Source of the DNA: Candidatus Treponema merdequi
GTDB taxonomy: Bacteria; Spirochaetota; Spirochaetia; Treponematales; Treponemataceae
Assembly: GCA_018064525.1 (NCBI GenBank)
Contig: JAGHVB010000029.1
Span: forward strand, 1-60,455
Length of the DNA: 60,455 bases
Reading direction: 5' to 3'
In this document: positions 25,939 through 37,148 of the stretch, in pieces
Position numbering within the stretch: position 1 is the stretch's first letter
Layout of the letters: each line of letters begins with the position of its first letter
Notes under the pieces: model-generated
What the model saw: the letters and a program-made list of their open reading frames with translations, nothing else
The model's database searches: none
Told to the model about the DNA's origin: nothing
Translations under genes and position numbers: made by a program

Positions 25939-28900
25939 ATGAATTTAAAATTTTCTAAAAAGCTTACGGCTTTTCTTGTTGCTGCAAGTTATTGCCTTAT
26001 GCTTGTTCCTGCCAGAGAATTTCGGGAGGAATTTGAAAGTAAAGGACTGTTTGTTGAAAGAAATGAAATTGAAAAAGAAAAATTGAGTGAAGAAGAAAAA
26101 GTTTCTCTTGAACGTATGCTTAAAGGTGATGTTGTATGTGATGATATTTTCTGGGGTGAATATGATTCTGAATATTCAGAAATAAAAGATGCAACTTATG
26201 ACAGTCTTTTTTTAATTCACAAAAGCAGATTGTACGGACTTTTACTTAAAGCTAAAGAAGATTTTTTTAATGAAAAAAAAGAAAGTTATCAAAGTGAAAA
26301 AGAAATTGAAAGTAAATGGGAAAAAACAGCAGAAAAAATTGCAGAAGATTATATTTTAGAAAGTAATCTTTCAGATTCGAAAGAATGTGATGAAATTAGC
26401 TGTGATTTTATTGAAATGGAAAAAGAAGTTTTTAATGAGCTTTTGTGTGAATTAATGCAGTATGAAAATTCAATTGAAAAAAAATCTGTAAAGACACGGG
26501 CGGATCTTGTTGCAGATCAGATGATTTCTGAAATTGAAACAGAGACTGCACAGAGTTATGCAGATCTTTTTGATAAAGTTGAAAAAGCTGATGAATATGA
26601 TGAGGAAAATCTTGTTGTTCAAAGGGATGAGTGGTTTGAAAGTTTTAAAAAGTATATTGAAAATGGAATTTATAAATGGCAGAAAATAGAAAGTGATTTT
26701 CTGGAAGCGAAATACAGTTATGAAAGTGAAGCCGGTGATAAATATGCGGAAAGTGTAAAAGAGTGGGCAGATGCTTATGACAGACTGGAACAGAAAAAAG
26801 AAGCGTGGAAAGATGAAATGGAAACAAAACTTGAAGAAGGTCTTGTTACATGGCAGAAAAAGAGTTTACTTCTTGATGAAGATATTAATAAGGCTATGGA
26901 GGATTATAAAAATGAATTACTCGCAGAATCAAAACAAAAAAGTGAAGCTTTCAAAATCAATTGTGAAATATACACACAGACTCGTTCCCTGCTTAGTACA
27001 GCATGTAATGAAATCGAAAACTGGGCAGCAGTCTGGTCAGAAAAATATGACGGTATTTATTCATATTGGAAAACGGAAGACAATATGCAGGAAGCAGTAA
27101 ATCCACTGAAGAATTTTGTAACGATTGATGAGACTAACTGTAATCAGTTAAAGGAAAGTATTTCCAGTGTAAAAGAACAGTATAAAAAAACAACTGAAGA
27201 TATAATTTTGCGTAATGATGAATCGTTAAAAAATATTTATTTCGAATTATTTAATGAAGAAAATATACTTTTTAATGAACTTGAGATAGCGGAGAACTGG
27301 GTAGATTTAATCTGTGAATATTCAGTGTCTTTGAATGAAAGTCTTGAAAATCTCAGAAAGATGGTGTTTGATTATTCTGATCTGACATTTGTAAAAAGTA
27401 ATTTTAATTCACAGAAAGCTGTTCTTGAATCAGACTGTAATATGGCTCAGAAGCAGCTTGAAATATATAAAAGAATTTATGATTTTACAGTCAGTGATGA
27501 TTTTAAAAACGTAAACACAGAAGATTTAAAAATAAAACTTTCTGAAGCCTGTAATCTGACAGATAAATTTTCTGAAGAATATTCTCTTCTTCTTTTACAG
27601 ATAGAAAATGCAAAAGAAGAATATGAAAAAGCTGTTAAAGATTATGCAAATGAAAAAACTGTAATAAATAATCTTTTGCAGGAGTTGAAATCGGTTGAGA
27701 CAGATTACGAAACTGCAAAATATAATGACAGTTATACAAATCTTACAAATTTAAAAAATGAATGCATTTCTGTCATAAATTCCATGAATTCAATTTTTAT
27801 TAATCCTTTAATCACAAAAGCCTGCGTTAAAGAATACGTTAACCTTGTAGAAAATCATTATTATGAAAAAGTTTATGAAGATTCAAAGGTGATTGTCCAA
27901 TCACTATATGACGGTTTTAATTGTGAATATTACGATGAAACTGGATTTCACAGTTATTATGTAAGGGGAATTAATGAACTTTATGAGGAACTTTATAAAA
28001 TAAAAGAAATTAATAAAACGGCTGTTTATTATTCTTCTGGAATGGTTGATGAATCGCGTCTGATTGATACAACGGAAATTGAAAATTTAATTGATATCAG
28101 TACAGAACTTGCAAAGTTTATAAAGTATGGAACTCTTACGAAGGATTATTCTGAACAGGAATATGAAGATATGGTAAATGCCAATGGATTAAAGTCGGCT
28201 ATGTTCAGTCAGAAAAAAGATTCTGAGGTAAAATCTCTTTTATATGATTGCATTGTTAGATTTAAAAATGACAATCCTCAATATTATCTTACGATGTCTG
28301 ATAACGAAATTGATGATTTTTTTAATGAATTGAATCTTATTATTAAAAATAATTTCTGTACTGATCTTGTAAAGGATGAACTGAGTATTTATCAGAATGA
28401 AATATATAAAGCAAGAAATCAGGCAAAAAACCTGGATGAAATAAACAGACTCTCGCTAGATTTAAGTAATGTTTTTGAATATGAAATAAATATTAATCAA
28501 TTGAATTATGATATAGAAAGTTTTGAATTTTTATTTATAAACGGTGTTTTGGAATTTGAATTACCTGAAAAAATTAAAAAACAGGAAATAGAAGATAAGA
28601 ATAATCCTTCAAATAAAAAAAATTATACGGCATACACAGAAGAGTCAGAGATGGAATATTCGATGAATGAAAGAGATGCCGTAAAAAAACTTTTTTTATT
28701 TGATACGATGTATGAAAAATTAAAAGTTACATTGGAAAATACAGGAAAACAGTTAGTCAAAGTTAATGATGAATATCAGGATTTTTACATTCGCTATACA
28801 GATACAAAAAATAAAATGGATTATTTTGAAAACCGGTATGCCGATGAACTTGAAAAATTAAATGGAAATAATTTTGAAAGTTATTTTATAAAAGTAAAAA

Positions 28901-31900
28901 AGAATCTTGAAAAGTATAATGATCTTGTTAATCAGGCTTTTACAAAATATGAGCAGCTTGAAGAAGCCAGGGATAATGAATATGTTTTAATAGAAGCATT
29001 TAATCTTAAACAGAATGAATACATTTTTTTAGACAGTGATCTTGAAAACTGTTTTTCTCCTTTAAAAAATTATCAGAATGCTTTGTCAGATTATGAAGAA
29101 AAATTGAACAGACTTAAAGAATTTGAATTAAAAAATTCTGGTATTGATTATCAGAAACATCTTGTTTTATATGATTCAGATGGAAATGATGTTTTTGATG
29201 AATTTCATGATATTTCGGAAATTTATCGTTCATCAGAAGTTTTTGGATATGAAATCAGGAATGTTATCAACCGTCAATTTGAAAAATATGAAAAAGTTCT
29301 GAAGAATGAAGCGGAATTATTTTCAAGCATTGTCTGTGAAACTGAAACTGAAAATTTTGAACTAAAAGATATTGTAAAAGCTTTTGTTAAAGTTGAAAAA
29401 GTAAATGATGTATATGATATTTCATTTAGAGATGATATAGATTTTACAAAAACTGTTCTTGATAAACCTTATGAATATGAAGAAGCATGTTCTGAATATT
29501 TGACGCAAAAATGCGTAACTCAATATCTTGATACAGGTGAACCGGTTTTTTATTCAATGTCTGAAATTGAATGCGGAAATTTTTTAAAAGAGCTTTCTGG
29601 CAAACAATATTCAATTGATGATCTGATGCTTGCGGAGTGTTATTTAAAAGCGCTGTTTACGGAAAAGTCTTTGTTTGAGGAAGGTGAAAATCCCCAGAAT
29701 AATCAGAATTATGCACTTGATTCAATTATTGATAAAATGCTTGATGTAAGTATTTATACAGAATATAAAAATGGCAGGATTAATACAATCCGGGATTCAT
29801 ATTATAAAGTAATTGCAAATAATGGACAGAATGATCTTGCAAAGTTTATTGTGTTTAATGAATATAATATTAATGAAAATCTTAATCTGCTTGAAAGGGA
29901 AAAAGCTGTAATTGCTAAAAATGCATTGATGCAGGTTATTTCTCATCTTGAAAGTAAGGAAAAAGAATATAAAACAAAAGAATCTGTTGCTATAACTTCT
30001 GCATCTGCTATGGCCTGTGTTGCAGTTTTTCCTGTTCTTGCATTTTTTGCTGCTCCTTCAGCAGCATTGTATGTAACGGCTGCTTCATATCACAGGTCTG
30101 CCGAAGATTTTGCAGAATGTGCAGATGATATCAGAAACATTATCAATGGTTATGATATTATCATTGCGGATGAAGAAAATTCTGCAGGAAATATAATTGC
30201 ATCATGGATAGAAAAACAGAATGTCCTGAATATAATACAGAATGATACATATACGATGTTATATGGACAAAATCAGTTTTCGGATAAAAATATAACTTTT
30301 GATAAATTCAATAAACAGATAAAAAAAATGCTTTCTGATAATGGAATGGATTATGATTTATATACTGAAAGTTTGTATTCAGATTTAGAAGATATCCGTA
30401 CATTTGAGGATCTGTTTAATAATGCTGTTCTCAATCATGATTGTACTACAACTCTTGATGCAGTAAATTGCATAACAGATTATCTTGCTCGGAAGTATGA
30501 CTCTGAGTTTATGAAAGTTACAGAGTGTGCTGATAGTGCAAGAAAAAACGATGACTGGAATGAATCAATGTATCTTCGTGAAATCGGAAATATCAGCTTT
30601 GATACTCTTATTAATGAAAGTAAAGTAGATTTGAAAAGAGAACAGGAAGATTATATTTCAACAGGTTTTAATATTCTTGTTTCATCTTATGAAAATCTTT
30701 TGACAGAATATTATAAAAATCTGATTATTGAAAAAGAAAATAATTTAAATCTAAAAAAAGAAAAGCTGAATTTACAATATCTTGACTGGTTGAATGAAAT
30801 TGAAACTACGAAATTAAAAGGTGATAAGGAATGGGCTGAAGCAGAAGAACAGTTTAAGGCGAAGTTTGTAACCTGGAAAAATCAGTTTATCGATAATTTT
30901 GAAAAAAAAGAACATGATTGGAATTCAGAATACGAAAATCTTTTAAAAGAAAAAGCTGAATGGATTGACTATAATTATACAAGACAGGCCTTGTCTTCTG
31001 ATATCGACATAACTTCAGATTACGAGCTCAATTCCAGAATTGCTGAAATTTCAGAAAAAGCAAAAGAAATTTCTTCTGCAGGTGAAAATGAATATTTATA
31101 TGTAATACAAAATTTGAATCTGGAAGATATATGTGATCTTTCCGGGTTTGATTTAATCAGTTCAAGTATTGAAAATTTAAATACTGAAATCCTGCGTAAC
31201 GCTGTGGATATTTTCAATGTAAGTAAACTAAATTATTTTGATTTTGAAAGTTCAGAAAAAATTAATAAAACAATTGAAAAAATAGGCAATGATATTGAAA
31301 GCATTACATTTATTCAGTCTTCACAGTTGGCTCTTGAAAGCATAAATAATCAGATAAATCAAATTCTTGATATGATAAACGAAAGTAACAGGAATTTTGA
31401 AAAATGGGAAAAACAGCTTGTATTAAAAGACGGTTATACTTATGGAAATGAAATTTACAGAGATGCTGTTGTAGATTCAACTGTTTTTGAATCTACAATA
31501 CGAAAAAGACAGACTGTTCATAAATATGAGTTTTTTGAAACTGTAATTCCGGAAATTTCATTTTCAGTTAAGAGTGCTAAGAATTCAGATATTATAAATT
31601 TTATGCTGAATAAAACTTATGATGATATCCGTATCTGGAATGAAGAGATATTTGGTTCTGAAAACGGTGATGGTAAAGAAGGCCTTTTTGCAGAACATAT
31701 CGGATTTGCACCTGAATTTGTTGAAAATGTCAACACAAAAATAGATTGTGTCAAAAATATTTCAAAACCAGGAAGTGGACAGCTGGGATTTGTGATGTTA
31801 GACTATATATGGAATTCAGCTGAAAGCCACAGCGGGTATGAACAGCTTGGAATTCCTCTTTATGAAAAAAAGCTGACTTCAGAAAATCAGATTTTGGGTA

Positions 31901-34203
31901 TTGAACTTCCAACTTTGCGTGATGTAACTGCAATGGTATGCGATATTATTGGAAATTGTACTGGGCAGGTCTGGGTTTCTGCGATTGATGATTTGTTGTT
32001 TGGTATTATGGATTTGGATTTTAATCAAAAATCTGCAGATCAGGTTACAGTTTCTCTTTTAAAAGCCGGTGCCGCTTCGTGTATTGGTTCTGCGGCTTCT
32101 GCTGCGATGAATACTGTTGCCGGTACTGCAATGAATCAGGTCTTGAAAACGACTGCAAATGCGGGTATCAGAACTGCACAGACATTTTTAAGTTCTGCAG
32201 CAAATTCATATATAGATGCGATGAGTTTTACGGATGGCTTTTCAATTGACTGGAATAAGGCAAACAACTTTTTGTCAGACGGAGACGTATTGAGAAATTC
32301 CATAAGCGCCGGATTATCATATTTCACAAACCAGACAGTCAGCAGTGCATTAAATTCAATTACATTAACAGACGGAGTAAATAAAGCATTAAATCAGGAT
32401 ATATTTAAGGTCTCTCAAATGAATTCACTTAACAGTGTTATCTCTGGTGTTGCCGCTTCTGGTGTTGAGAGGATGATTACTGGGAAAACAACTTTGAATC
32501 TTTTAAGTGCCGCAGATCTTGGTTTTAGAACTGGCTTTATTGATAAAAATGGAAATTATATAAAAACGGATCAGGGTGTTGATGTAGGTTTGCTTGCAGT
32601 AACTTTTGATGATTCAGGTGTAAGTGCGAAAATTGCAAATGAAGGAACTGTTCTCGGGTTAAAAAAGATTACGGATGGTTTGACAGGAATAGATGATGCA
32701 CTTCGAGTAATAAAGGCGAAAGAAAAAGCAAAGAATGGTGATAATAAAGAGATTTCGATTTTGAACGGTGTGAATGGACTGGGGTATTTAGGTGGAATTA
32801 ATTTTGATATTGCACAAAATGTTTGGAATGATAGTTTATATGTTGAATTTGTAAATTCAGATGCTGAAGGTTTTTATAATCAAAAATTGTCTCCAAATAC
32901 AATTTACGTAAATGAAAAATATATCGGAAATGATATAGATAGTATTTCAAAATTTGGAACAGTTCTTGCTCATGAAGGTTCCCATTATCTAGGTAATGAT
33001 GTAGAAGGATTTGCTTATCTGTTGAGTGATTCAGCATATAATAATTTGATTAATTTTTACGGATGTGAAAAGGATCTTGATTTTCAAGAAATCATAACTT
33101 ACGGTTTGATAAATCCTGAATCTTGGAAAATCAGTAATGAAGAATATCAATGGTGGAAAGTTAATCATGATGGAAATTTAATTTTTGATGGAAAAACTGA
33201 TTTGTATGATGAAAATAATCTTTTGTTAAAAAAAACAGACAAAGGATTTACAGATTCGTTGGCTGAATATTTAAATATTTCTTATCAAGATGCAACAAAA
33301 TTATTATTGAGTTATTTTAACTATGATAAAAGAAGATCTAAATGGGTTTATAAAGAGAGCGGTGCTATTGTAGATTTAGATCCTGGTTGTGTTTTTGAAA
33401 CATCTAATGAATTTAAATATGCTTATGATTTTCAGATAAATTATATAGATAAAGTTAATAGTGAATATGGAGGCAGTTTAATGAATGCTGTTAATGCTTA
33501 TGAAAATAAACTGTTAAGTGATGTTCAATATTCAAAAAATAGACAGCTGGCCATAGAGGAATTACAGAATATAGAATCATATAAAAACTTTGCTAATGAG
33601 TATGATTCTTTTATAGATAAGTATCTTAATAAACAGCTTCCAAAAGAAGATAAACAGAAGTATTTAGATGCCGTTGTTAATGAATGTATGAATAATAATT
33701 ATAGTAATGAAAGTATTTTTTATACATTGATTGAAAAAGACTTGAATCCTTTATTAGGTGAGACATATATAAATACTAAATATATATATGATAAAGATAA
33801 TAAATATCTAATAGAAGCAGGTCTGGCTAATAAAAAACATTCAATTAAGGCAGATACTTTTGCATATGATTTAGGTACACATCAAAAAGGATTAGATATA
33901 CTTTCTATTGTTCCATCGAATCTTGTAACATCTGATTATATTCGGGTAACATATGGAGCTGGATATGAGTTATCAACATATACAAAAGATTTTTTAATAA
34001 AAGCAAAACATATGCAGGAAAATAGTCAGGTGTTAAACGATATACGAAAGTTAGCTACAAGTGCAGAAGAAATCAATTTGCAAAGATTTCCAATTCCGCA
34101 AAATACTAAAATTGGTGAAGTTGGAACAAAAGGTTTTGTTGGAAACTATTGGAGTGGTCCACACTTACATGGTGAATATACATATTTAGGAATAAAAAAA
34201 TGA
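25939..34203 (+). CDS. Giant secreted coiled-coil protein with HEGSH motif and M23-like C-terminus
   Basis: 2,754 residues, not matched to a named protein. A signal-like N-terminus (KKLTAFLVAASYCLMLVPA) precedes about 1,300 residues of Glu/Lys-rich helix, probably coiled coil. A hydrophobic stretch at about 1350-1382 is followed by more coiled coil to about 1900, then an Ala/Gly/Ser-rich hydrophobic part at about 2035-2095. Next is a metalloprotease-like HEGSH (2345-2349, then LGNDVE). The last ~110 residues resemble an M23/LytM peptidase: His2648 with Asp2653, His2691, and GPHLHGEY with His2742 and His2744. The first pair is HxxxxD, not the usual HxxxD. Giant spirochaetal proteins with variable C-termini are known, for example in Leptospira. 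The 3' end is visibly richer in AT. Confidence 0.8.
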   Translation: MNLKFSKKLTAFLVAASYCLMLVPAREFREEFESKGLFVERNEIEKEKLSEEEKVSLERMLKGDVVCDDIFWGEYDSEYSEIKDATYDSLFLIHKSRLYGLLLKAKEDFFNEKKESYQSEKEIESKWEKTAEKIAEDYILESNLSDSKECDEISCDFIEMEKEVFNELLCELMQYENSIEKKSVKTRADLVADQMISEIETETAQSYADLFDKVEKADEYDEENLVVQRDEWFESFKKYIENGIYKWQKIESDFLEAKYSYESEAGDKYAESVKEWADAYDRLEQKKEAWKDEMETKLEEGLVTWQKKSLLLDEDINKAMEDYKNELLAESKQKSEAFKINCEIYTQTRSLLSTACNEIENWAAVWSEKYDGIYSYWKTEDNMQEAVNPLKNFVTIDETNCNQLKESISSVKEQYKKTTEDIILRNDESLKNIYFELFNEENILFNELEIAENWVDLICEYSVSLNESLENLRKMVFDYSDLTFVKSNFNSQKAVLESDCNMAQKQLEIYKRIYDFTVSDDFKNVNTEDLKIKLSEACNLTDKFSEEYSLLLLQIENAKEEYEKAVKDYANEKTVINNLLQELKSVETDYETAKYNDSYTNLTNLKNECISVINSMNSIFINPLITKACVKEYVNLVENHYYEKVYEDSKVIVQSLYDGFNCEYYDETGFHSYYVRGINELYEELYKIKEINKTAVYYSSGMVDESRLIDTTEIENLIDISTELAKFIKYGTLTKDYSEQEYEDMVNANGLKSAMFSQKKDSEVKSLLYDCIVRFKNDNPQYYLTMSDNEIDDFFNELNLIIKNNFCTDLVKDELSIYQNEIYKARNQAKNLDEINRLSLDLSNVFEYEININQLNYDIESFEFLFINGVLEFELPEKIKKQEIEDKNNPSNKKNYTAYTEESEMEYSMNERDAVKKLFLFDTMYEKLKVTLENTGKQLVKVNDEYQDFYIRYTDTKNKMDYFENRYADELEKLNGNNFESYFIKVKKNLEKYNDLVNQAFTKYEQLEEARDNEYVLIEAFNLKQNEYIFLDSDLENCFSPLKNYQNALSDYEEKLNRLKEFELKNSGIDYQKHLVLYDSDGNDVFDEFHDISEIYRSSEVFGYEIRNVINRQFEKYEKVLKNEAELFSSIVCETETENFELKDIVKAFVKVEKVNDVYDISFRDDIDFTKTVLDKPYEYEEACSEYLTQKCVTQYLDTGEPVFYSMSEIECGNFLKELSGKQYSIDDLMLAECYLKALFTEKSLFEEGENPQNNQNYALDSIIDKMLDVSIYTEYKNGRINTIRDSYYKVIANNGQNDLAKFIVFNEYNINENLNLLEREKAVIAKNALMQVISHLESKEKEYKTKESVAITSASAMACVAVFPVLAFFAAPSAALYVTAASYHRSAEDFAECADDIRNIINGYDIIIADEENSAGNIIASWIEKQNVLNIIQNDTYTMLYGQNQFSDKNITFDKFNKQIKKMLSDNGMDYDLYTESLYSDLEDIRTFEDLFNNAVLNHDCTTTLDAVNCITDYLARKYDSEFMKVTECADSARKNDDWNESMYLREIGNISFDTLINESKVDLKREQEDYISTGFNILVSSYENLLTEYYKNLIIEKENNLNLKKEKLNLQYLDWLNEIETTKLKGDKEWAEAEEQFKAKFVTWKNQFIDNFEKKEHDWNSEYENLLKEKAEWIDYNYTRQALSSDIDITSDYELNSRIAEISEKAKEISSAGENEYLYVIQNLNLEDICDLSGFDLISSSIENLNTEILRNAVDIFNVSKLNYFDFESSEKINKTIEKIGNDIESITFIQSSQLALESINNQINQILDMINESNRNFEKWEKQLVLKDGYTYGNEIYRDAVVDSTVFESTIRKRQTVHKYEFFETVIPEISFSVKSAKNSDIINFMLNKTYDDIRIWNEEIFGSENGDGKEGLFAEHIGFAPEFVENVNTKIDCVKNISKPGSGQLGFVMLDYIWNSAESHSGYEQLGIPLYEKKLTSENQILGIELPTLRDVTAMVCDIIGNCTGQVWVSAIDDLLFGIMDLDFNQKSADQVTVSLLKAGAASCIGSAASAAMNTVAGTAMNQVLKTTANAGIRTAQTFLSSAANSYIDAMSFTDGFSIDWNKANNFLSDGDVLRNSISAGLSYFTNQTVSSALNSITLTDGVNKALNQDIFKVSQMNSLNSVISGVAASGVERMITGKTTLNLLSAADLGFRTGFIDKNGNYIKTDQGVDVGLLAVTFDDSGVSAKIANEGTVLGLKKITDGLTGIDDALRVIKAKEKAKNGDNKEISILNGVNGLGYLGGINFDIAQNVWNDSLYVEFVNSDAEGFYNQKLSPNTIYVNEKYIGNDIDSISKFGTVLAHEGSHYLGNDVEGFAYLLSDSAYNNLINFYGCEKDLDFQEIITYGLINPESWKISNEEYQWWKVNHDGNLIFDGKTDLYDENNLLLKKTDKGFTDSLAEYLNISYQDATKLLLSYFNYDKRRSKWVYKESGAIVDLDPGCVFETSNEFKYAYDFQINYIDKVNSEYGGSLMNAVNAYENKLLSDVQYSKNRQLAIEELQNIESYKNFANEYDSFIDKYLNKQLPKEDKQKYLDAVVNECMNNNYSNESIFYTLIEKDLNPLLGETYINTKYIYDKDNKYLIEAGLANKKHSIKADTFAYDLGTHQKGLDILSIVPSNLVTSDYIRVTYGAGYELSTYTKDFLIKAKHMQENSQVLNDIRKLATSAEEINLQRFPIPQNTKIGEVGTKGFVGNYWSGPHLHGEYTYLGIKK

Positions 34204-35135: not shown

Positions 35136-35170
35136 TAAAATTTTTTGAAAAAAGTTAATTGTATAAATAA

Positions 35171-35445
35171 TTAATACAACCTTTTTCTTTGTTCGTATTC
35201 TTTGAAAAGTTCGAGGCAGTCGCCGCGGTGATAGTTTTCGAGTTGCGGCAGGCATCGCGGATTGCTTCCATTTCGCCGTGGCAGGTCGGATCTCCGTTTT
35301 TGAGAACTCGGTTGTGGCCGCGTCCTATGATGTGATTTTCTTTTGTGATGACAGAACCAAATGGACCGCCGTCACCGTTTCCGATTCCGTTATAGGCTTC
35401 GTCTAAGGCAATCTGCATGGCAAATTCCTGTGTAACCGGTTCTTT
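35171..35445 (-). pseudogene. Relic of nucleoside/guanine deaminase with internal deletion
   Basis: The first part reads like a cytidine-deaminase-fold enzyme: MQIALDEAYNGIGNGDGGPF, RGHNRVLKNGDPTCHGEMEA, keeping the zinc His and proton-shuttling Glu (HGE). After RDACR (near 35245) the normal frame drifts into nonsense, but a different frame continues with LPQLENYHRGDCLELFKEYE and stops at 35171, which fits the normal C-terminus of such deaminases. The PCxxC zinc segment in between is missing, so a deletion of tens of codons plus a frameshift has destroyed the gene. Base composition is less AT-rich than the genes just upstream. Confidence 0.75.
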
Positions 35446-35700
35446 TTGTAATTCTGATATATGTGTATGTGATTGCAAGACGGAGCATTTTTTTTCCAAA
35501 ACCTTTGCTACGCCACTTTGGAGCGATGTACTGGCCGATGTGACCTGAACCGTCTGCAAGAGCTTCTGTAAGATAATGTCTTATCCTGATCATTCCGATT
35601 ATTTCATCATCATTTATAAAAAGAAAATTCGTTTACAAACCCGTTTTCGTCGGCGGGAATTGATTTTATAAATTCATATTCTTTTTTATCAAATGTATAA
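35446..35700 (-). pseudogene. Relic of GNAT acetyltransferase
   Basis: Read on the minus strand, one frame gives FDKKEYEFIKSIPADENGF and stops; a neighbouring frame continues with NDDEIIGMIRIRHYLTEAL and GSGHIGQYIAPKWRSKGFGK, then KMLRLAI. This is the core of a GNAT acetyltransferase including the acetyl-CoA-binding R/K-G-x-G-x-K region. The chain then degenerates before the conserved end and runs into the deaminase relic. At least one frameshift and a 3' loss are visible. No functional product is expected. Confidence 0.7.
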
Positions 35701-35793
35701 CTGATTTCTTATAAATAAAACATAATCTGCTTATAACATACATTTCTGGTTTTAAAAAGTAATATTGTCTTATAGATTCCCCTTAAAAATCCC

Positions 35794-35822
35794 TTGCACA
35801 AAAGTGCATAAAAATGTATATT
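35794..35822 (+). promoter_or_regulatory. argG promoter
   Basis: TTGCAC (35794-35799), 17-base spacer, TATATT (35817-35822). This gives a leader of about 50 bases before argG, ending in an AGGAG binding site. Confidence 0.75.
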
Positions 35823-35839
35823 AATTGCATAAATATACA
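35805..35839. promoter_or_regulatory. Two tandem ARG-box-like operators
   Basis: TGCATAAAAATGTA (35805-35818) and TGCATAAATATACA (35826-35839) both fit the ARG-box pattern TG-N-A-T-W4-A-T-N-C-A closely. Their starts are 21 bp apart, the same spacing as paired ArgR half-operators in Escherichia coli. The first lies between -35 and -10, the second covers the expected transcription start, as expected for repression by an ArgR/AhrC hexamer. No argR gene is in this window. Confidence 0.65.
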
Positions 35840-35882
35840 TTCTGGTTTTTAATTAAATTCAACCTGAAACAGGAGAAAAAAT

Positions 35883-37148
35883 ATGGCAAAGGACAAAGTA
35901 ATTCTTGCTTATTCTGGCGGACTTGATACAACAGTTATCATTCCATGGCTCAAAGAAAACTATGACTACGATGTAATCGCAGTTTGTATCGACGTTGGTC
36001 AGGGCGATGACTGGCCGGCAATCAAAAACCGCGCACTTAAAACAGGTGCGAGTGCCTGTTACGTTGTTGATGCACGCGAAGAATATATCACAGAATATAT
36101 CTGGCCTGCTGTTAAGGCAAATGCAGTTTACGAAGATGAATATCTTTTGGGAACTTCAACAGCTCGTCCTTTAATCGGAAAAATTTTAGTTGAATATGCA
36201 CGTCAGGAAAAGGCAGTTGCAATCTGTCATGGTGCTACTGGTAAAGGAAACGATCAGGTTCGTTTTGAACTTGCTATCAAAGCTTTTGCTCCTGACCTTC
36301 AGGTTATCGCTGCATGGCGTGATGACAAGTGGAATATGGACAGCCGCGAAGCAGAAATCAAATACCTCGAAGACCGTGGCCTCGAAGTTCCAATGAAAAA
36401 AGACCAGTCATATTCACGCGACGAAAACATCTGGCACCTTTCACACGAAGGTCTCGAACTTGAAAAAACAGAAAACGAACCAAACTATAAACACATGCTC
36501 AAGAACACTACAGTTCCTGAAGAAGCTCCTGCTGACGGCGAGTACGTAACAATCGACTTTGAAAAAGGAATTCCTGTTGGACTTAACGGAAAGAAAATGG
36601 GCGCACTTGATCTGTTGAACGAACTCAACGTAATCGGTGGAAGAAATGGTGTAGGTCTTGTTGATATCTGTGAAAACCGCTGCGTCGGTATGAAGAGCCG
36701 CGGTGTTTATGAAACTCCGGGTGGAGCAATCCTTTACTTTGCTCACAGAATGATGGACCACATCTGTCTCGACCGCGAAACATATCACTACAAGCAGCAG
36801 GTTTCTATCCGCATGGGTGAACTTATTTACGACGGAAAATGGTTTACAACTTTGATGGACGCTTGTATGGCATTTATGGATAAAACAGAAGAAACTGTAA
36901 CTGGATGGGCAAAAGTTAAACTTATCAAAGGTGCTATCCGTGCTGCAGGTTCTGGTTCAAAATACAGCTTGTACAACGAATCACTTGCTTCATTTACAAC
37001 TGGTGAGCTTTACAATCATAAAGATGCTCAGGGCTTCATCACATTGTTCGGCCTTCCACTTAAAGCACGTGCTTTGATGGAACAGAAAGTCGGCGAAGGT
37101 CAGGCTGTAAAAGAAAGCAAGAATCTTAAGAAAAGACCAACGGAGTAA
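35883..37148 (+). CDS. argG: Argininosuccinate synthase
   Basis: Joins citrulline and aspartate with ATP to form argininosuccinate, the penultimate step of arginine synthesis. The N-terminal PP-loop is AYSGGLDTTVIIPWL. Also seen: CIDVGQGDD, STARPLIGKILVE, CHGATGKGNDQVRFEL and GRNGVGLVDICENRCVGMKS. Length 421 is normal. Codon use is enriched in C-ending codons compared with neighbours, as in well-expressed genes. argH is not adjacent. Its promoter carries two ARG-box-like sites. Confidence 0.97.
   Translation: MAKDKVILAYSGGLDTTVIIPWLKENYDYDVIAVCIDVGQGDDWPAIKNRALKTGASACYVVDAREEYITEYIWPAVKANAVYEDEYLLGTSTARPLIGKILVEYARQEKAVAICHGATGKGNDQVRFELAIKAFAPDLQVIAAWRDDKWNMDSREAEIKYLEDRGLEVPMKKDQSYSRDENIWHLSHEGLELEKTENEPNYKHMLKNTTVPEEAPADGEYVTIDFEKGIPVGLNGKKMGALDLLNELNVIGGRNGVGLVDICENRCVGMKSRGVYETPGGAILYFAHRMMDHICLDRETYHYKQQVSIRMGELIYDGKWFTTLMDACMAFMDKTEETVTGWAKVKLIKGAIRAAGSGSKYSLYNESLASFTTGELYNHKDAQGFITLFGLPLKARALMEQKVGEGQAVKESKNLKKRPTE

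Follow-up and report, generated by a model that had tools for sequence, protein, structure and literature searches.

The window, by which we mean the whole 60,455-nucleotide stretch of Candidatus Treponema merdequi DNA that was analysed, contains the argininosuccinate synthase gene argG, and the promoter region of this gene is overlaid by three palindromes resembling the ARG boxes of ArgR operators. The features of the region are:

35794..35799, plus strand: likely -35 hexamer, TTGCAC; TTGCAT stands here in the majority of 39 aligned promoters
35795..35808, no strand: box A, TGCACAAAAGTGCA, a perfect palindrome that departs from the consensus at two symmetric positions, which hold C and G
35805..35818, no strand: box A', TGCATAAAAATGTA, with 1 mismatch to TGNATWWWWATNCA, 21 bp upstream of box B
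35817..35822, plus strand: likely -10 hexamer, TATATT; these columns read TA in 39/39 aligned promoters
35826..35839, no strand: box B, TGCATAAATATACA, the exact consensus (0 mismatches); 28/39 aligned promoters also have 0 here
35871..35875, plus strand: AGGAG, a likely ribosome binding site, judged from sequence
35883..37148, plus strand: argG, argininosuccinate synthase, 421 aa (NCBIfam PRK00509, 551 bits, and TIGR00032, 453.6 bits, both above cut-off)

The likely argG promoter, TTGCAC-17-TATATT, occupies positions 35794-35822. Box A' is located between its two hexamers, its last 2 bases being also the first two of the -10, and box B begins 3 bp downstream of the -10, probably over the predicted argG transcription start. 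Box A overlaps both the -35 and box A', lies 31 bp upstream of box B, and is in the position of the upstream box that is conserved among relatives. The original prediction was of two ARG-box palindromes 21 bp apart at the argG promoter, and both are present (35805-35818 and 35826-35839, measured start to start). Its span of 35794-35839 ends correctly at the end of box B but starts at the first base of the -35, where no box begins. It placed the first box between the -35 and -10, which is right except that the box reaches into the -10 by 2 bases, and the second over the start site, which agrees with where we predict transcription to begin. Missing from it was the third, overlapping palindrome, box A (35795-35808).

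A generic promoter scan was not significant on its own (2 promoter-like sites vs 2.0 expected), and our promoter call is supported instead by the conservation of the -35 and -10 columns across aligned relatives. An intrinsic-terminator-like match on the minus strand (35808-35795) is box A itself, and no minus-strand gene apparently ends there, so we discarded it. The window ArgG matches its nearest named records at 98% (a Treponema MAG from cattle colon) and 95% (T. bryantii), on which we take the source to be a Treponema of the gut type; it does not have the Lys/Ala-rich N-terminal extension (e.g. MAKVTEKVADKAKKTVSKAKTAVKSAAKKTTKKSG) present on the ArgG proteins of L058, L061, L062, L064, L068 and L157. 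Pieces that lie in different frames on the minus strand at 35440-35712 resemble a broken GNAT-type acetyltransferase (a label given by eye), and are flanked by a dCMP/cytidine-deaminase-like ORF (35155-35559, PF00383) and the argG promoter. Elsewhere in the window, positions 25939-34203 form an ORF of 2754 aa that matched no Pfam family at E 0.001.

The palindromes have the form and placement of ARG boxes, being 18-bp imperfect palindromes of the TGNAT-W4-ATNCA type at arg promoters. Position 35826 is the sole exact match to the 14-mer consensus in the window, and the A'-B pair has the smallest mismatch sum among all pairs at spacings of 9-42 bp. In the organism's own 2.7 Mb genome (G000; assembly of 2.70 Mb, 99.77% complete), the 21-bp tandem pattern with at most 3 mismatches occurs at 8 places, vs 0 for a reversed-pattern control, and its best places are argG and argF (1 mismatch each). 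The 31-bp tandem pattern occurs at 6 places (0 in the control), the best being argJ with 1 mismatch, while argG has 2. Exact single boxes number 14, compared to 2 in the control; they include boxes 17-82 bp from the starts of argF, argR, argJ, argG and citrate synthase, four lie within other ORFs, and the remainder have no clear link.

The expectation that the motif would also occur at other arg genes was therefore borne out at argF, at argJ, which heads argJ-argB-argD, and at the promoter of argR itself (as well as at citrate synthase). It failed at argH, where the only matches have 2 mismatches and none with ≤2 mismatches is at a promoter-like place, so we rejected argH as a target in this genome. 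Among same-genus genomes, an exact box is found upstream of argR in 21/30 and upstream of argJ in 11/30, with one mismatch in 14 more of the latter. At argF, by contrast, only 9/29 upstream regions, that of our own genome included, have a box with ≤1 mismatch; this is not a general feature, and on this count we rejected a conserved argF box across relatives.

The citrate synthase gene (G000:C87; 451 aa, PRK14032 683.6 bits) has an exact box 17 bp upstream of its start, directly after TTGCAT-17-TATAAT. Among the 29 same-genus genomes with at least 80 bp upstream of this gene, own genome included, an exact box is present in 20 and a box with ≤1 mismatch in 24, compared to shuffle expectations of 0.08 and 1.68, respectively. 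Citrate synthase leads toward 2-oxoglutarate and glutamate, which is the start of arginine synthesis; if ArgR controls it, arginine synthesis would be tied to 2-oxoglutarate supply. We found no report of ArgR with citrate synthase or gltA among the matches listed, and in the excerpt of PMC12341379 the mention of gltA is a reference title.

Boxes at argG are widespread in the genus. Among 31 same-genus argG upstream regions of at least 60 bp, the box is exact in 24, has one mismatch in 6, and is absent from one (G030, which has no ArgR hit). We compared spacings in 75 named Treponema-type argG promoters with at least 100 bp of upstream sequence (L230 was left out because its gene start is off the contig, reducing 76 loci to 75; the upstream regions of L058, L061, L062 and L068 are misplaced due to the N-terminal extension of ArgG, yet are kept in the counts). 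A pair of boxes with summed mismatches ≤3 was found in 53 of them and none in 22. The best spacing among the 53 is 31 bp in 33, 20 bp in nine, 32 bp in four, 41 bp in two and 10 bp in one, and in the remaining four, other spacings are tied with 31 bp (21 bp in two, 10 bp in one, and both 11 and 35 bp in one). A spacing of 21 bp is thus best in only 2/75 other argG promoters, both ties with 31 bp. The prediction of an ARG-box operator at the argG promoter stands, but the enteric 21-bp spacing as the design of the lineage is rejected, because 31 bp is best in 33/75 relatives.

A looser search for pairs at any spacing of 17-41 bp, made in 59 genomes, found 61 pairs, with 0 in the reversed control in every genome. 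There are 22 pairs at 31 bp, 20 at 21 bp, six at 20 bp, three at 22 bp, three at 18 bp (terminator-like), two at 30 bp, and single pairs at 27, 29, 32, 40 and 41 bp. Box spacings in the lineage cluster at 20-22 and 30-32 bp in these two datasets, although the 75 named loci and the 59 genomes share species and are not independent. Among 14 argG upstream regions from other genera, six have a 1-mismatch box, none has an exact one, and in none do two boxes of ≤1 mismatch each lie 21 or 31 bp apart.

The regulator itself is present. As the original prediction anticipated, the genome has an argR homolog, a single 155-aa ORF (G000:C20) with scores of 75.3 bits to PF01316, 85.6 bits to PF02863, and 133.7 bits to TIGR01529 (argR_whole; cut-off 130.45), all above cut-off. 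As is characteristic of the ArgR/AhrC family, it combines an N-terminal winged helix with a C-terminal ArgR domain in a single chain of ~150 aa. Its best solved relative in the PDB is AhrC of B. subtilis (E 2.4e-26), and the VTQAT-SRD recognition region is retained. The ArgR C-terminal domain is present in 53/59 genomes searched, and in 34/36 within the genus. ArgR and argG boxes tend to occur together: ArgR is found in 27/28 genomes with a boxed argG vs 12/22 with an unboxed one (Fisher P 5.0e-4), a comparison that covers 50 of the 75 loci and in which the incompleteness of metagenome assemblies is uncontrolled. G030, a 97% complete genome in which ArgR gave no hit, lacks the box at both argG and citrate synthase. 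The counter-cases are the 12 unboxed genomes that have ArgR, one of which is L195, with an ArgG 98% identical to that of the window, and two genomes, the boxed G107 and G002 (71% complete), that have boxes but no ArgR hit, perhaps because of missing sequence.

We conclude that this stretch is very probably the argG operator-promoter of a Treponema-type spirochaete, at which ArgR would shut off argG when arginine is plentiful. Under this model, ArgR, likely as an arginine-bound hexamer, would bind box B together with one upstream box, which may be either A' (21 bp away) or A (31 bp away). Both distances are whole helical turns, so in either pair (A'-B or A-B) the two boxes are on the same face of the DNA. 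Bound ArgR would cover both promoter hexamers and the start region, blocking RNA polymerase and turning argG off, and argJBD, argF, citrate synthase and argR itself are probably under its control too. We judge the predicted ArgR operator to be real, and ordinary in kind.

It is extremely improbable that these are chance A/T-rich palindromes near a promoter that no regulator binds. If 2 mismatches are allowed, matches to the 18-bp motif arise often by chance (59 in the window vs 39.9 expected), but helically spaced pairs are almost absent from shuffled sequences and from the reversed-pattern controls, on which we rejected this explanation, and the boxes recur before the same genes in other genomes. 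It is quite possible, though not the reading we favor for the window, that the real operator pair is A and B at 31 bp, with A' owing its resemblance to a box only to its overlap with the -10 region and the right half of A. An alignment of 39 distinct argG promoters with a 31-bp pair puts the -35 (TTGCAT) at the left edge of box A, and the position of A' has ≤1 mismatch in 0/39, which indicates that the conserved upstream box is the one built over the -35; the poor scores of A' in these promoters are due in part to the -10 region forming its right half. Besides being the best spacing in those 33 of 75 promoters and tied best in four more, 31 bp is also the better fit at argJ in the same genome (1 mismatch vs 3 at 21 bp). 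Against this, box A in the window has C/G at its two symmetric consensus columns, a state seen in 0/39 relatives, whereas A' has 1 mismatch. In the window the 21-bp pair has 1 mismatch and the 31-bp pair has 2, so A'-B may be the working pair in this genome; argF in the same genome is a 21-bp pair, and 21 bp is common at other genes genus-wide (20/61 pairs). As the working register, we give a slight edge to the 21-bp pair in the window and to the 31-bp pair in the lineage.

We think it unlikely that the palindromes bind an ArgR whose signal is something other than, or besides, arginine, but the ligand pocket raises this question. According to the excerpt of PMC7248756, Gly-Asp-Asp is the one longer stretch shared by the four ArgRs aligned there, and both of its Asp residues contact L-arginine in B. 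subtilis ArgR. In all 30 ArgR proteins that we compared (28 from the same genus and two from the same order) the second Asp is Asn, and the first is retained in 23 and replaced by Glu in seven, so that the stretch reads Gly-Asp-Asn or Gly-Glu-Asn in 30/30; two proteins have an inserted Arg. The pocket therefore differs from those of solved ArgRs, which makes arginine less than certain as the ligand and weakens the claim of arginine binding, while the family assignment, made by whole-protein score, is unaffected. The presence of citrate synthase, the entry to 2-oxoglutarate and glutamate, among the targets also fits another ligand. However, arginine synthesis genes and argR itself make up most of the clear targets, an Asn may still be able to contact the ligand, and the equivalent of Asp128 is missing in some ArgRs (PMC7248756, in the same excerpt).

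The operator can be compared to three known designs, as described in excerpts of the papers cited. In E. coli, two 18-bp ARG boxes with a 3-bp gap are 21 bp apart (PMC6640053) and the consensus is TNTGAATWWWWATTCANW (PMC4865122). The window is similar in having two boxes that overlap promoter elements and an A'-B spacing of 21 bp, but its half-site is TGCAT/TGTAT rather than TGAAT, and 31-bp pairs dominate at argG in the Treponema lineage. Streptomyces ArgR operators have TGCAT half-sites (AWTGCATRWWYATGCAWT, PMC4865122), as in the window, but their boxes are contiguous or 1-2 bp apart (PMC5839063, PMC3293853). In the high-affinity argC operator of B. subtilis, two ARG boxes are 11 bp apart and the hexamer touches three boxes (PMC3293853). 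This longer gap at an AhrC site resembles that of our 31-bp pairs, with a centre distance of 29 or 31 bp depending on the box length used, and we know of no closer parallel to the long spacing than argC of B. subtilis.

Three features of the lineage are worth testing: the spacing of three helical turns with one box enclosing the -35, the citrate synthase target, and the altered ArgR pocket. We tentatively propose that gut-type Treponema have a variant arginine regulon, in which the upstream box also serves as the -35 and lies three turns from the downstream box, citrate synthase is a member that links arginine to 2-oxoglutarate supply, and the ArgR pocket has Asn for the second Asp; the operator in the window may have moved from a 31-bp to a 21-bp register through the symmetric change in box A. 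In the one open-access library searched, we found no paper on ArgR in Treponema and none on an arginine regulon in Treponema or spirochaetes, consistent with the remark in the original prediction that arginine repression is little described in this group. Our results propose an arginine regulon that can be tested in a spirochaete genus, with the regulator gene and five promoters named in one genome and citrate synthase as a predicted target, and indicate that related genomes can differ in operator spacing by one helical turn.

Some further observations concern genes downstream of box pairs, which we read for 30 of the 61 pairs (29 plus our own argF); the names MoxR ATPase, symporter and ABC transporter come from reading translated starts, with no family search. 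A separate argD gene is preceded by a 31-bp box pair in relatives L156 and L166, and 21-bp pairs are found upstream of a MoxR-like ATPase gene (named by eye) in L162 and L163. The OTC of our genome (G000:C2:9103-10098) is 77-94% like the OTC of 17 same-genus genomes; other same-genus genomes have only a 49-53% relative, and genomes of other families have one of 57-60%, a pattern possibly reflecting mixed ancestry or a catabolic type of OTC.
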